Position numbers and translations under genes: made by a program
NCBI GenBank assembly: GCA_017475765.1
Contig: JAFVEY010000072.1
Span: forward strand, 1 to 55,669
Direction: 5' to 3'
DNA length: 55,669 bases
Source of the DNA: Clostridia bacterium
GTDB taxonomy: Bacteria; Bacillota; Clostridia; Oscillospirales; Acutalibacteraceae
The notes under the pieces: generated by a model
Database searches by the model: none
Told to the model about the DNA's origin: nothing
What the model saw: the letters and a program-made list of their open reading frames with translations, nothing else
Shown here: positions 35,966 through 41,087 of the stretch, in pieces
Position numbering within the stretch: the first letter of the stretch is position 1
How the letters are laid out: every line of letters begins with the position of its first letter

Positions 35966-37051
35966 ATGGAGAAGAAAGCTTATCTTTTGTTGGAAAACGG
36001 AGATGTGTACGAGGGGTTCGCCTTCGGTGCGGAAAAGGAGGTTATCGGGGAGCTTGTATTTACAACAGCTATGACAGGCTATCTTGAAACACTAACCGAC
36101 CCCAGCTATTTCGGTCAGATTGTCTGCCAGACATTTCCTTTGATTGGTAATTACGGTGTTATTCCCTCCGATTTTGAGAGCAAGAAGCCGGCGCTTACCG
36201 CTTATATTGTAAGAGAGTGGTGTCAACGGCCGTCCAATTTCAGGTGTGACGGGGTGCTTGACACTTTTTTAAAGAAAAGCAATATTCCGGGTATATATGG
36301 TATTGATACACGCTGCCTTACCAAAACGGTTCGTGAATACGGTGTCATGAATGCCGCTGTCAAATACAGCGAACCGACAGATGAGGATCTCGAAGCACTC
36401 AGACCATACAGGATAACAAAGGCTGTCAGCAGCGTTACCACCGCTGAGCCTGAAACCTTCAAGGCGGATCATGCAGAATATAATGTTGTGCTGATGGATT
36501 TCGGCGCAAAGGATAATATAAGAAGAGAGCTTGTCAAAAGAGGCTGCAATGTCACCGTTGTTCCCGGAGATACTGCTGCTGAAGAAATAAAGGCGCTGAA
36601 CCCTGACGGCATCATGCTTTCAAACGGCCCCGGAGATCCTGCCGAAAATACAGGCATCATTGAGGAGCTGAAAAAACTCGCTGAGTATAAGATCCCGACC
36701 TTCGGAATATGTCTGGGTCATCAGCTGATGGCTCTTTCACAGGGAGCAAAAACCGAAAAGCTCAAATATGGTCACAGAGGTGCCAATCAGCCGGCAACCG
36801 ATACACAGACAGGCAGAGTGTATATCACAAGTCAGAATCACGGCTATGCGGTGGTTGCTTCCACGCTTCCGGATAATGCTTATGAGAGCTTTGTCAATGC
36901 TAATGACGGCACTTGTGAGGGCGTTACCTATAAAAATATACCTTGCTTTACAGTACAGTTCCACCCGGAGGCTTGCGGAGGTCCGCTTGATACCTCGTTC
37001 TTGTTTGACAGATTTATAAAAATGATGAAGGAGGACAAAAACAATGCCTAA
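35966..37051 (+). CDS. carA: Carbamoyl-phosphate synthase small (glutaminase) subunit
   Basis: Hydrolyses glutamine and channels ammonia to CarB. The 361-residue protein has the CarA N-terminal domain (LLLENGDVYEGFAFG, TGYLETLTDPSYFGQIV) and the class I glutaminase domain with the nucleophile Cys in FGICLGHQLM and the His/Glu pair near VQFHPEACGGP. The ATG follows AGGAGG. It overlaps the carB-dapF start by 8 bp, so subunits are made in coupled fashion. It heads a carA, carB-dapF, pyrG set. Confidence 0.96.
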   Translation: MEKKAYLLLENGDVYEGFAFGAEKEVIGELVFTTAMTGYLETLTDPSYFGQIVCQTFPLIGNYGVIPSDFESKKPALTAYIVREWCQRPSNFRCDGVLDTFLKKSNIPGIYGIDTRCLTKTVREYGVMNAAVKYSEPTDEDLEALRPYRITKAVSSVTTAEPETFKADHAEYNVVLMDFGAKDNIRRELVKRGCNVTVVPGDTAAEEIKALNPDGIMLSNGPGDPAENTGIIEELKKLAEYKIPTFGICLGHQLMALSQGAKTEKLKYGHRGANQPATDTQTGRVYITSQNHGYAVVASTLPDNAYESFVNANDGTCEGVTYKNIPCFTVQFHPEACGGPLDTSFLFDRFIKMMKEDKNNA

Positions 37052-40000
37052 GGATAACAGTATCAAAAGAGTTCTCGTGATCGGTTCAGGTCCTATCGTG
37101 ATTGGTCAGGCAGCCGAATTTGACTATGCAGGTACACAGGCTTGCCGTGCGCTGAAGGAGGAGGGACTGGAGGTCATACTCGTCAACTCCAATCCGGCAA
37201 CGATCATGACGGATAAGGCGATGGCGGATAAGGTTTATATCGAGCCGCTGACACTTGAAACGGTAAAGAGAATCATTATAAAGGAACAGCCCGACAGCCT
37301 TCTTTCTACCCTCGGCGGACAGACAGGTCTTACGCTTTCCATGCAGCTGGCAAAGGAGGGCTTCCTCGAAAAGCATAATGTGCGCCTTCTCGGAGCAAAT
37401 CCTGAAACGATCGACAAGGCAGAGGACAGACAGATGTTCAAGGATACAATGGAAAGTATCGGTCAGCCTGTAATTCCTTCGCTTGTTGTCAATGATGTTG
37501 AGTCGGCAGTTCAATTTGCTGACGAGATCGGCTATCCTGTCATCATCCGTCCAGCATTTACGCTTGGCGGAACGGGCGGCGGCATTGTCAATAACGAAGA
37601 GGAGCTTCGTGAGATCACCGCCAACGGTCTGGAGCTTTCTCCGATCACACAGGTGCTTGTGGAGAAATGTATTGCAGGCTGGAAGGAAGTTGAATTGGAG
37701 GTAATGCGTGATAAGATAGGCAATGTCATCACGGTATGCTCAATGGAAAACTTCGACCCTGTCGGTGTTCATACGGGCGACAGTATCGTTATAGCGCCGA
37801 CAGTTACGCTGGCGGATAAGGAATATCAGATGCTCAGAAGTGCGGCGCTCAATATTATATCTGCTCTCGGTGTAGAGGGCGGCTGTAACTGTCAGTTTGC
37901 GCTGGAGCCGGAGAGCTTTCAGTATGCAGTCATTGAGGTTAACCCCCGTGTGTCACGTTCATCTGCCCTTGCTTCAAAGGCAACAGGTTATCCGATCGCC
38001 AAGGTTGCTGCAAAACTTGCCATCGGCTATACGCTCAATGAGATTAAAAATGCCGTTACGGGAACGACTTATGCCTGCTTTGAGCCGGCTCTCGACTATG
38101 TTGTTGTGAAATTCCCGAAATGGCCGTTTGATAAATTTGTCTATGCAAAGCGTACTCTCGGAACACAGATGAAGGCAACGGGCGAGGTTATGTCGATCGC
38201 TCCGACCTTTGAGCAGGCAATCATGAAGGCGGTGCGTGGTGCGGAAATATCTCACGATACGATGTCTTCGGTCAAATTCGAGGCGCTGTCAACCGAGGAG
38301 ATCAGGGATAGACTCAGCGTATGTGATGATGAGCGCTCCTTCTGTGTTTATGAAGCGCTTAAGAGAGGCATATCGGTTGAGGAAATTCACTCAATCACCA
38401 TGATAGACGAATGGTTCCTTGAAAAGCTCTTGAATCTTGTCAGATGCGAAACAGAGCTTAAGGGCGGCGAACTGACGGACGAGCTGTACAGAAAAGCAAA
38501 GCTCCTCGGCTTCCTTGACAGAACGATTGAAAAATTGACAGGCTCCAAGGTGAAGGAGCCGATGATCCCCGTATATAAAATGGTTGATACCTGTGCGGCA
38601 GAGTTTAAGGCTGAAACACCGTATTTCTATTCCACCTTCGATAAGGATAACGAGGCAGAAGCCTTTATCAAGGAAAAGAATTCCGACAGAAAAACCATCA
38701 TCGTATTCGGTTCGGGACCGATCCGTATCGGTCAGGGCATTGAATTTGACTATGCGTCTGTTCATTGTGTGTGGGCGCTCAAAAGAGCCGGCTTTGATGT
38801 TGTGATCGTCAACAATAACCCCGAAACCGTTTCCACAGATTTTGATACTGCCGACAGACTTTATTTTGAACCGCTTACCAACGAGGATGTTATGGGCATT
38901 ATCAAAACAGAGAAGCCTTACGGCGTTGTCGTTGCCTTCGGCGGACAGACAGCTATCAAGCTGACAAAATATCTCAGCGACAACGGTGTGAATATTCTCG
39001 GAACATCGGCTGACAGCATTGATATGGCAGAGGACAGGGAGCGCTTTGACGAGCTTCTGGAGCTTCATAACGTAAAACGTCCGCAGGGCTATACGGTTAT
39101 GACAACTGAAGAGGCGCTGGATGTTGCGGAAAGAATCGGATATCCTGTTTTAATGCGCCCGTCCTATGTTCTCGGCGGTCAGAATATGATCATCGCCTTT
39201 AATGAAGCCGATATCAAGGAATATATGGCGATTATCCTCGCTCAGAATATCGAAAACCCGATACTGATTGACAAGTATCTTTCCGGTACGGAGCTGGAGG
39301 TTGACGCTATATGCGATGGTGAAGATATCCTTATTCCCGGCATTATGCAGCACGTTGAAAGAGCCGGTATTCATTCCGGCGACTCGATCGCTGTCTATCC
39401 TGCATGGAACATCAGCGATGAAATGACGAGAAATATCATCAACACCTCCAAGAATCTGGCGGTTTCTCTTAAGACAAAGGGTCTTGTCAACATACAGTAC
39501 CTGATTTATGAAAATAAGCTTTATGTCATCGAGGTCAATCCCCGTTCTTCCAGAACGATTCCGTACATCAGCAAGGTGACGGGCGTTCCTATGGTTGACC
39601 TTGCCACAAGGGCAATGCTCGGCGAAAAGCTGGCAGATATGGGTTACGGAACAGGACTTTATAAGAGATCGCCTTATGTTGCCGTCAAGGTTCCGGTATT
39701 CTCCTTTGAAAAGCTCATCAATGTTGATAACCAGCTCGGTCCGGAGATGAAATCCACAGGTGAAGTGCTCGGTATTGCAAATACGCTGGAAGAGGCGCTT
39801 TATAAAGGACTGATCGCAGCAGGCTATAAGATGAAAAAGCAGGGCGGTGTATTTATTACCGTCCGTGACCCCGATAAGAATGAGATCGGAGCAGTAGCAA
39901 AGAAATATAATGAGCTTGGTTTTACACTTTATGCAACAAAGGGTACAGCAAGAATTATCAGAGATTACGGTCTGGATGTTATCGAGGTTGACAAGATCCA

Positions 40001-41087
40001 TGTCAATGAGAAGGAAAACACCCTCACGCTGATCGAAAGCGGAAAAATCAATTACGTTATCTCAACCTCTTCAAAGGGCAGAATCCCGACCCGTGACAGC
40101 GTTAAGATCAGAAGAAAAACGGTTGAAAGAAATATCCCCTGTCTTACCTCCATTGATACGGCTAATGCGCTTGCCGATTCGCTCAAGAGCAAATACAGCG
40201 AATACAGCACAGAGCTGGTGGATATCAACGATATGAGAACAGAAAAGGTTCGCCTTAAGTTCACGAAAATGCAGGGGACAGGAAATGACTATATCTATTT
40301 CAACTGCTTTGATCAGAAAATCAATAACCCCGAAGGTCTTGCAGTCCGTTTCGGCGACAGAAGATACGGAATCGGAGGTGACGGTGTTATTCTTATCTGC
40401 CCGTCTGAGGTTGCGGATGCAAAGATGAAGATGTATAATGCAGACGGTTCAGAGGGCAAGATGTGCGGTAACGGAATACGCTGTATCGGCAAATACCTTT
40501 GTGACCACAATATGATAAGAGGCAATACCATCACCATAGAAACACTCAGCGGTATCAAAACGCTGAAGGTATTCCGCCATGACGGTGAAAATGATGTGTT
40601 CAAGGTTGATATGGGCAAGGCAGAGCTTCGTTCGGAGCTGATACCTGTTGCTGTTGACAAGCCGAAGGTCATCAACGAGCCTGTTACCATCGGAGGAGAG
40701 GAATACAATATCACCTGTGTTTCGATGGGTAACCCCCATGCCGTTGTATTCTGCAATAATGTCGAGAAGATCGACCTTGAAAAGGTAGGTCCTCTTTTTG
40801 AAAACAGCGAGCTGTTCCCTGAAAGAGTCAATGCAGAATTTGTCAAGGTAATCGACAGCAGCACCATTGAAATGAGGGTGTGGGAAAGAGGCACAGGCGA
40901 AACATGGTCCTGCGGCACAGGAGCTTGTGCAGTAGCTGTTGCGGCGGTTGAAAACGGTCTTTGCAAAAAAGGCGAGCCTATCACCATTAAACTGAAAGGC
41001 GGCAACCTTGTGATCGAATATACGGATGATACGGTTTATCTTACAGGTGTTGCAGAAACAATATTTGAAGGAGAAATTGAGTTATGA
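37044..41087 (+). CDS. carB: CarB-DapF fusion: carbamoyl-phosphate synthase large subunit plus diaminopimelate epimerase
   Basis: One uninterrupted 1347-residue frame. Residues 1 to about 1068 are a full CarB: two ATP-grasp synthetase halves (each starting with a V-x-G-S-G-P-I-x-I-G-Q motif) and the C-terminal allosteric MGS-like domain. Residues about 1070-1347 are a full-length DapF ([12 protein letters not shown] onward) that converts LL- to meso-diaminopimelate. Both catalytic cysteines of DapF are kept: C1141 in MCGNGIRC and C1290 in SCGTGACAV. There is essentially no linker ([14 protein letters not shown]), and the usual DapF initiator Met is replaced by Leu1071. The frame overlaps carA by 8 bp and pyrG by 4 bp. 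Confidence 0.95.

Follow-up and report, generated by a model that had tools for sequence, protein, structure and literature searches.

The window analyzed here is a stretch of 55,669 nucleotides, positions 1 to 55,669 of contig JAFVEY010000072.1 (assembly GCA_017475765.1), from a Clostridia bacterium of the family Acutalibacteraceae. From 37044 to 41087 on its forward strand it carries a single open frame, 1347 residues plus stop and free of internal stops on translation, that matches the families of two enzymes: CarB, the large subunit of carbamoyl-phosphate synthase (CPS), and DapF, diaminopimelate (DAP) epimerase. The original prediction for this sequence had described a single CarB-DapF chain with both halves intact and almost no linker, and this is borne out: both families are matched above their cut-offs, CarB ends at residue 1051, and DapF starts at residue 1072.

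The CarB part (residues 1-1051, 37044..40196) scores 1501 bits against NF003671 (cut-off 599) and 1453 bits against TIGR01369 (cut-off 1027), and Pfam finds in it two pre-ATP-grasp domains, two ATP-binding domains, the CPS oligomerisation domain (residues 423-499, 38310..38540; PF02787, 89.6 bits) and the allosteric MGS domain (residues 950-1035, 39891..40148; PF02142, 64.6 bits). It thus has all the domains of E. coli CarB (1bxr/1jdb), which it also resembles in having carA adjacent, and the difference from bacterial CarB is in length, with fused frames mostly of 1310-1390 residues and unfused ones usually of 1053-1126. Alignment with E. coli CarB shows K954, T974, T977, and K993 to be identical and N1015 and T1017 to be replaced by Ser; we take these six to be residues of UMP, IMP, and ornithine control. 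As predicted, the fusion point comes after the allosteric domain, at the end of CarB, where a junction placed by the C-termini of unfused CarB frames and by alignment (residues 1052-1071, 40197..40256) carries the motif VDIN(D)M.

The DapF part (residues 1072-1345, 40257..41078) has a 285-bit match to TIGR00652 (cut-off 114.65) that spans positions 2-268 of 270, contains two DAP_epimerase repeats, and is related to solved DapF structures. In a single-chain model of residues 541-1347 (pLDDT 84.1, pTM 0.80), the DapF half matches the fold of DapF 9mro with an rmsd of 1.7 Å, and the junction has a pLDDT of 83-85. The two cysteines that had been singled out as intact, Cys1141 (codon 40464..40466) and Cys1290 (codon 40911..40913), are located in the two catalytic motifs of DapF, from which we take them to be Cys73 and Cys217 in DapF numbering, and Leu1071 does occupy the position of the lost DapF start Met. 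The eight DAP-binding residues given in PMC5296763, equated by motif, are also present. A string of 19 site residues reads the same here as in the stand-alone DapF that this genome also encodes, and all 30 sequences examined from the genus keep both Cys and all 19 of these residues. In fold, catalytic Cys, and DAP-binding residues the domain is therefore like stand-alone DapF (TIGR00652), from which it differs in being the C-terminal domain of a CarB, many of whose fused relatives lack the first Cys. From these features, together with the genomes described below in which the fused domain is the only known meso-DAP route, the DapF half of the window is very probably active as an epimerase.

Directly upstream, carA, encoding the CPS small subunit (35966..37051, forward strand; NF009475, 481 bits), overlaps carB by 8 bases. 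Downstream on the same strand, the ATG of pyrG, encoding CTP synthase (41084..42715; NF003792, 840 bits), overlaps the stop of the fused gene, and pyrG separates it from dapL, encoding LL-diaminopimelate aminotransferase (42904..44112; TIGR03542, 507 bits, cut-off 364.7), whose proximity had been noted in the original prediction. In this lineage the product would be a bifunctional chain, the CarB half making carbamoyl phosphate together with CarA and the DapF half converting LL-DAP, supplied by DapL encoded two genes on, to meso-DAP.

The window genome (G000) has two further meso-DAP routes, for three in all: a second, stand-alone DapF with both Cys (C78:28921-29751, 51% identical) and a meso-DAP dehydrogenase, Ddh (C22:47036-48013, 453 bits). 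Because of these, the proposal that the fusion ties wall and nucleotide synthesis in an obligatory stoichiometry is rejected for this genome. Stand-alone DapF was not seen, among the matches listed, in 40 of 64 genomes of the genus, many of which are incomplete. Of 29 tested genomes that have both Cys in the fused domain and no stand-alone DapF, 13 were also without Ddh. These include G007, G043, and G060 from the window's own genus, each given as 100% complete, and in all 13 the fused domain is the sole known meso-DAP route.

Distribution and probable origin of the fusion

The fusion recurs in other genomes with the junction open. Among the matches listed for the 64 genomes of the genus, 46 have a full-length or nearly full frame and 11 more a partial frame open across the junction, for a total of 57; one of the 11, G056, has a TAG within three codons of one match end, with an open junction. 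The remaining 7 genomes (62-87% complete) gave fragments or nothing, and no match listed for the 64 ended at CarB's natural end. A wider search used the MGS-plus-DapF part as query and counted rows that ran without a stop from query position 1 or 2 to at least 443. Open fused frames were found in this way in at least 70 of the 200 genomes searched at family level, at least 102 of 297 at order level, at least 39 of 293 at class level, and at least 15 of 249 at phylum level; these sets overlap partly and share the window genome among others. Four genomes listed as single-contig (G427, G686, G964, and G987) have the fusion, all four in a form without the first Cys, and named carriers include uncultured Ruminococcus metagenome-assembled genomes (91-93%) and the isolates Ruminococcus sp. 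FC2018 and Sporobacter termitidis DSM 10068 (Oscillospiraceae). Two records titled Treponema (L150 and L165) have a fusion lacking the first Cys, with no carA seen in about 1.2 kb upstream; they may reflect transfer or wrong binning, and the genes flanking them give no indication of taxonomy.

Among the papers listed by searches of an open-licence library, we recognised none that describes a CarB-DapF fusion, and domain databases may well contain this architecture without comment. Fused enzymes and pseudo-enzyme domains are both familiar; the pairing of CarB with DapF and its repeated inactivation would be new.

Trees built from CarB with DapF left out need 2 changes between fused and unfused states, one of which is G116, a loss of DapF inside the fused clade. 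Excluded from these trees were unfused CarB of less than 45% identity, loci beyond the 30 kept, and the second-CarB fragments L271, L272, L275, L277, and L280; near-copies (23 genus genomes together with L127, L128, L129, and L143, 27 of 198 fused sequences) were left out of trees and conservation counts alike. In G116 (L369) the complete CarB frame ends at the junction and lacks the DapF domain, and a gene that reads from its translation as argF comes next. The long-branched G930 sits beside unfused rows in one CarB tree. These topologies fit about one fusion event, plus the loss in G116. Two results stand against a single gain: the CarB trees are unrooted, so that loss in the sampled unfused lineage is formally possible, and a DapF-only tree needs 6 changes between fused and stand-alone, 3 of them forced by supported branches, so that the DapF half may have undergone some exchange or fission.

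The C-termini of unfused CarB frames lie close to the fusion point, 26 of 31 (including G116) within 10 residues of the Asp-Ile/Asp-Met pair of the junction and 21 of 31 within 6. Since most unfused CarB end near the junction and dapL often follows, the fusion probably arose by the joining of two adjacent operon genes through loss of the boundary between them, which would be the simplest route. In this account, an operon of the form carA-carB-dapF-(pyrG)-dapL would have lost its carB/dapF boundary in about one event, in a forerunner of many Clostridia, and the CPS large subunit would since have ended in a DAP epimerase. The gene order of the fusion also occurs unfused in five genomes (G564, G336, G301, G346, and G064), in which a second carB is followed by stand-alone dapF and dapL; these second CarBs, the five fragments named above, are 42-44% identical to the window's C-terminal part. 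In G235 (L267) and G150 (L268), dapF, pyrG, and dapL come straight after a second carA, without an intervening carB. At L309, L294, and L230 (G248, G163, and G173), a fused gene with both Cys has another dapF, also with both, 0.1 to 2 kb downstream of it.

Absence of the first catalytic cysteine

We compared 198 fused DapF domains, 30 from the genus, 133 from genomes chosen over families, and 35 from named records. The first catalytic Cys is absent in 88 of these 198, a proportion that is no measure of prevalence, as the sample was chosen to span diversity and contains a few genome duplicates under two names. Its replacements are Ala (49), Gly (24), Ser (7), Phe (5), Tyr (2), and Thr (1). The second Cys is retained in 80 of the 88, and 8 lack both, while none of 114 stand-alone DapFs lacks either. 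In 69 genomes with Cys-less fusions the fused domain still scores over the TIGR00652 cut-off.

On the CarB trees the state of this Cys changes 17 times with 200 rows, 16 times with 88 rows, and 14 times with 60 rows (bootstrap range 14-16), and at least 10 changes are forced by supported branches. The counts themselves give no direction; we read the changes as losses because all stand-alone copies have the Cys. Within one clade all 56 rows are Cys-less apart from G116, where the domain is gone; elsewhere a Cys-less row has an intact one as its sister, at 94-100% support, in G129/G154, G205/G108, G242/G163, and G170/G246. In CgDapF, either Cys-to-Ala change nearly abolishes activity (PMC5296763). 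Judged from these residues, the Cys-less fused domains are quite likely to be catalytically inactive. For both classes DAP would be the expected substrate; the existence of DapF-like proteins with other substrates (PMC11602996) speaks against this assignment.

The two classes also differ in their other meso-DAP routes and in gene context. Stand-alone DapF is present in 43 of 69 Cys-less genomes versus 18 of 64 intact ones, and among the 26 Cys-less genomes without it, 22 have Ddh over the cut-off and G176 has a fragment at a contig end. Counting that fragment, an alternative route (stand-alone DapF or Ddh) was found in 47 of 50 Cys-less versus 16 of 29 intact genomes (p 7e-5), the comparison being of tested genomes in the tree, with the window genome among the 29; G041, which has Ddh and lies outside the tree, would make the latter 17 of 30. 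Downstream sequence was readable over at least 3 kb for 59 of the 83 intact records and for 70 of the 88 that are Cys-less, with genus near-copies and the window left out. Within 3.6 kb on the same strand, dapL was found in 36 of the 59 intact versus none of the 70 Cys-less records, and pyrG in 24 versus 1. The nameable genes after Cys-less fusions are unrelated (NifS, ThiI, MATE, IS30, Trk, Nuo, and pyruvate phosphate dikinase). At 24 stand-alone dapF loci of Cys-less genomes, dapL adjoins in 17 and is one pyrG away in 2.

Several results count against the explanation favored below. The associations are not significant on tree-independent pairs: dapL context gave about 4.3 of nine pairs in the expected direction and 0 in the other (median sign-test p 0.125), absence of stand-alone DapF gave 5.0 versus 1.5 of ten pairs (p 0.29), and absence of any other route gave 1.3 versus 0.1 of seven pairs (p 1). 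In three Cys-less genomes, G102, G200, and G490, no stand-alone DapF and no Ddh was found. The G490 genome is 91% complete, and two others from its genus, G352 and G423, do have stand-alone DapF; G102 and G200 are 97-99% complete and have a LysA-like gene of 275-279 bits, below the cut-off of 297.9 as in the window's own genus. The Cys-less fusions of G200 (L328) and G102 (L329) also have Asn11 changed to Asp, and these two genomes stand as exceptions.

Retention of the DapF domain

The Cys-less domains remain under purifying selection. For the DapF part the median dN/dS is 0.113 over 53 Cys-less pairs and 0.122 over 131 intact ones, and for the CarB part it is 0.057 and 0.093, respectively, values for which dS was computable in only 197 of 1479 close pairs (1282 dropped), with many dS above 1 and members shared among pairs. 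Over the 75 Cys-less rows left after thinning, conservation of the DAP-binding residues is 81-99%; the losses are Met1140-Cys1141 and, in part, Ser1227. The model of the Cys-less Sporobacter domain (pLDDT 85.8) superposes on DapF 9mro with an rmsd of 1.9 Å.

The explanation that we favor on balance is that of a single fusion, bifunctional in the window lineage, whose DapF domain gained a second role on CPS independent of epimerase activity. Taken by itself, this second role seems fairly probable from the pattern of conservation, and the DapF domain would have been kept because of it, despite loss of the Cys. It would most likely consist in effector sensing or in assembly through the MGS end. 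CPS effectors act through the MGS domain. The original prediction had suggested that effectors of CarB might influence the epimerase; repeated loss of the Cys with the domain retained suggests the reverse direction, with DapF acting on CarB.

There are precedents for parts of this explanation. E. coli DapF in which Cys is changed to Ala is dead as an epimerase and still stimulates RppH (PMC4227774), so that DapF acts there, as is proposed here, on another enzyme regardless of its epimerase activity; the difference is that in the DapF-RppH complex (6d13) the proteins are separate and the partner is another one. Human CPS1 retains an inactive glutaminase domain, whose Cys is Ser, and is switched by a ligand, NAG, at its C-terminal domain (PMC4655335). 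It is thus, as is proposed here, a CPS with a retained dead enzyme domain and control through the C-terminal end, but there the dead domain is the ancestral glutaminase on the N-terminal side, while here an epimerase of another pathway has been added at the C-terminus. The domains of DapF move and close on ligand binding (PMC5296763).

A more specific version, which we regard as speculative, makes DapF a built-in diaminopimelate sensor of CPS, in which DAP would close the pocket, the MGS domain would relay this, and CPS flux would be set, so that the supply of UTP for the UDP-sugar precursors of the wall would follow that of DAP. Catalysis would later have been dropped in ten or more lineages and the sensor alone kept. 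That DAP is the ligand in the second role at all is a tentative suggestion.

Some of the data count against a role of this kind. Pocket columns are conserved no better than 39 other constrained columns (0.932 versus 0.931, p 0.50), and constraint on the fold could therefore explain the kept pocket residues. The pocket has decayed in at least seven of the domains without the first Cys (G171, G247, L154, L156, L158, L164, and G685). G116 has lost the whole DapF domain, which is therefore not indispensable to CarB, and the junction in the Cys-less model has a pLDDT of only 63-65, so that rigid coupling is unsupported.

The first two of these observations are also expected if the fusion is plainly bifunctional, with no cross-talk, ligand, or regulation, and Cys-less domains are kept because the C-terminus of CarB has come to need them for folding or solubility, since purifying selection on a fold requires no ligand. 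This dependence on structure is a credible though not a likely alternative: G116 keeps a complete CarB frame without the domain, and polar pocket residues are largely kept where drift would be expected if the fold alone mattered.

It is improbable that the Cys-less domains still catalyse, whether an epimerisation, perhaps one-way or with another base, or some other amino-acid reaction through the second Cys. The wide retention of that Cys and the want of any other meso-DAP source seen in G102 and G200 would fit such an activity, and an aspartate/glutamate racemase with one catalytic Cys changed to Thr works in one direction (PMC8142540), which counts against inactivity. The replacements here, however, are mostly Ala or Gly, which are unable to act as a base, changing one Cys to Ala leaves CgDapF with almost no activity (PMC5296763), and nearly all such genomes in the comparison above have another route.

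We consider it very improbable that CarB and DapF are additionally produced as separate chains, through proteolysis or an internal start near Met1064, so that the fusion would mean little. Met1064 (40233..40235), seven codons upstream of Leu1071 and in frame, is a putative internal start, and 126 of 169 fused genes have an in-frame ATG within the last 15 codons before the DapF part, with a five-base Shine-Dalgarno-like core in 17 of 169 versus 6.1 expected from synonymous shuffling. Against this, 43 of the 169 have no such ATG, 66 have no core of three or more bases versus 54.9 expected, and the frame is open in every row counted in the family, order, class, and phylum sets. A test of start codon and Shine-Dalgarno sequence over the 169 genes thus gave no clear signal of a conserved internal start, Met1064 included. 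The earlier statement that DapF cannot easily be made alone stands as far as conservation goes, although Met1064 might permit separate synthesis. Finally, an artefact of assembly or annotation, which the draft state of the window genome (81 contigs) might invite, is rejected, and chance and mis-assembly with it, because the junction recurs from genus to phylum, in 57 of 64 genus genomes among the matches listed, in single-contig genomes, and in both isolates.

Gene neighborhood and implications

Upstream of carA, and also on the forward strand, lie a gene for an ANTAR-domain response regulator (35267..35842; PF03861, 57.8 bits; PF00072, 31.1 bits) and, before it, one for a glutamine synthetase (33887..35191; PF00120, 306.6 bits; TIGR00653, 350.8 bits, below the cut-off of 429). 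Together, these two genes (33887-35842) and carA, pyrG, and dapL form a cluster of glutamine and glutamate users, perhaps under nitrogen control. In two Cys-less genomes, G205 (L269) and G141 (L285), a glutamine synthetase gene and a relative of the window's ANTAR gene are grouped with stand-alone dapF and with dapL, without car genes. An Rfam scan of the window, in which an RNA element near the ANTAR gene was looked for, gave only a bacterial small SRP RNA (55119-55217; RF00169, 63.4 bits). Directly after dapL lies a gene for a large subtilase-family protein with a PA domain (44196-48071).

For annotation, the fusion is a trap: Cys-less domains pass the curated DapF cut-off, and pathway tools would therefore count an epimerase that is probably absent. 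The family also offers a natural series of active, dead, and deleted domains, in which a pseudo-enzyme domain has seemingly arisen many times. If the proposed explanation is true, cell-wall and nucleotide synthesis would be coupled in one protein of many gut and rumen Clostridia.

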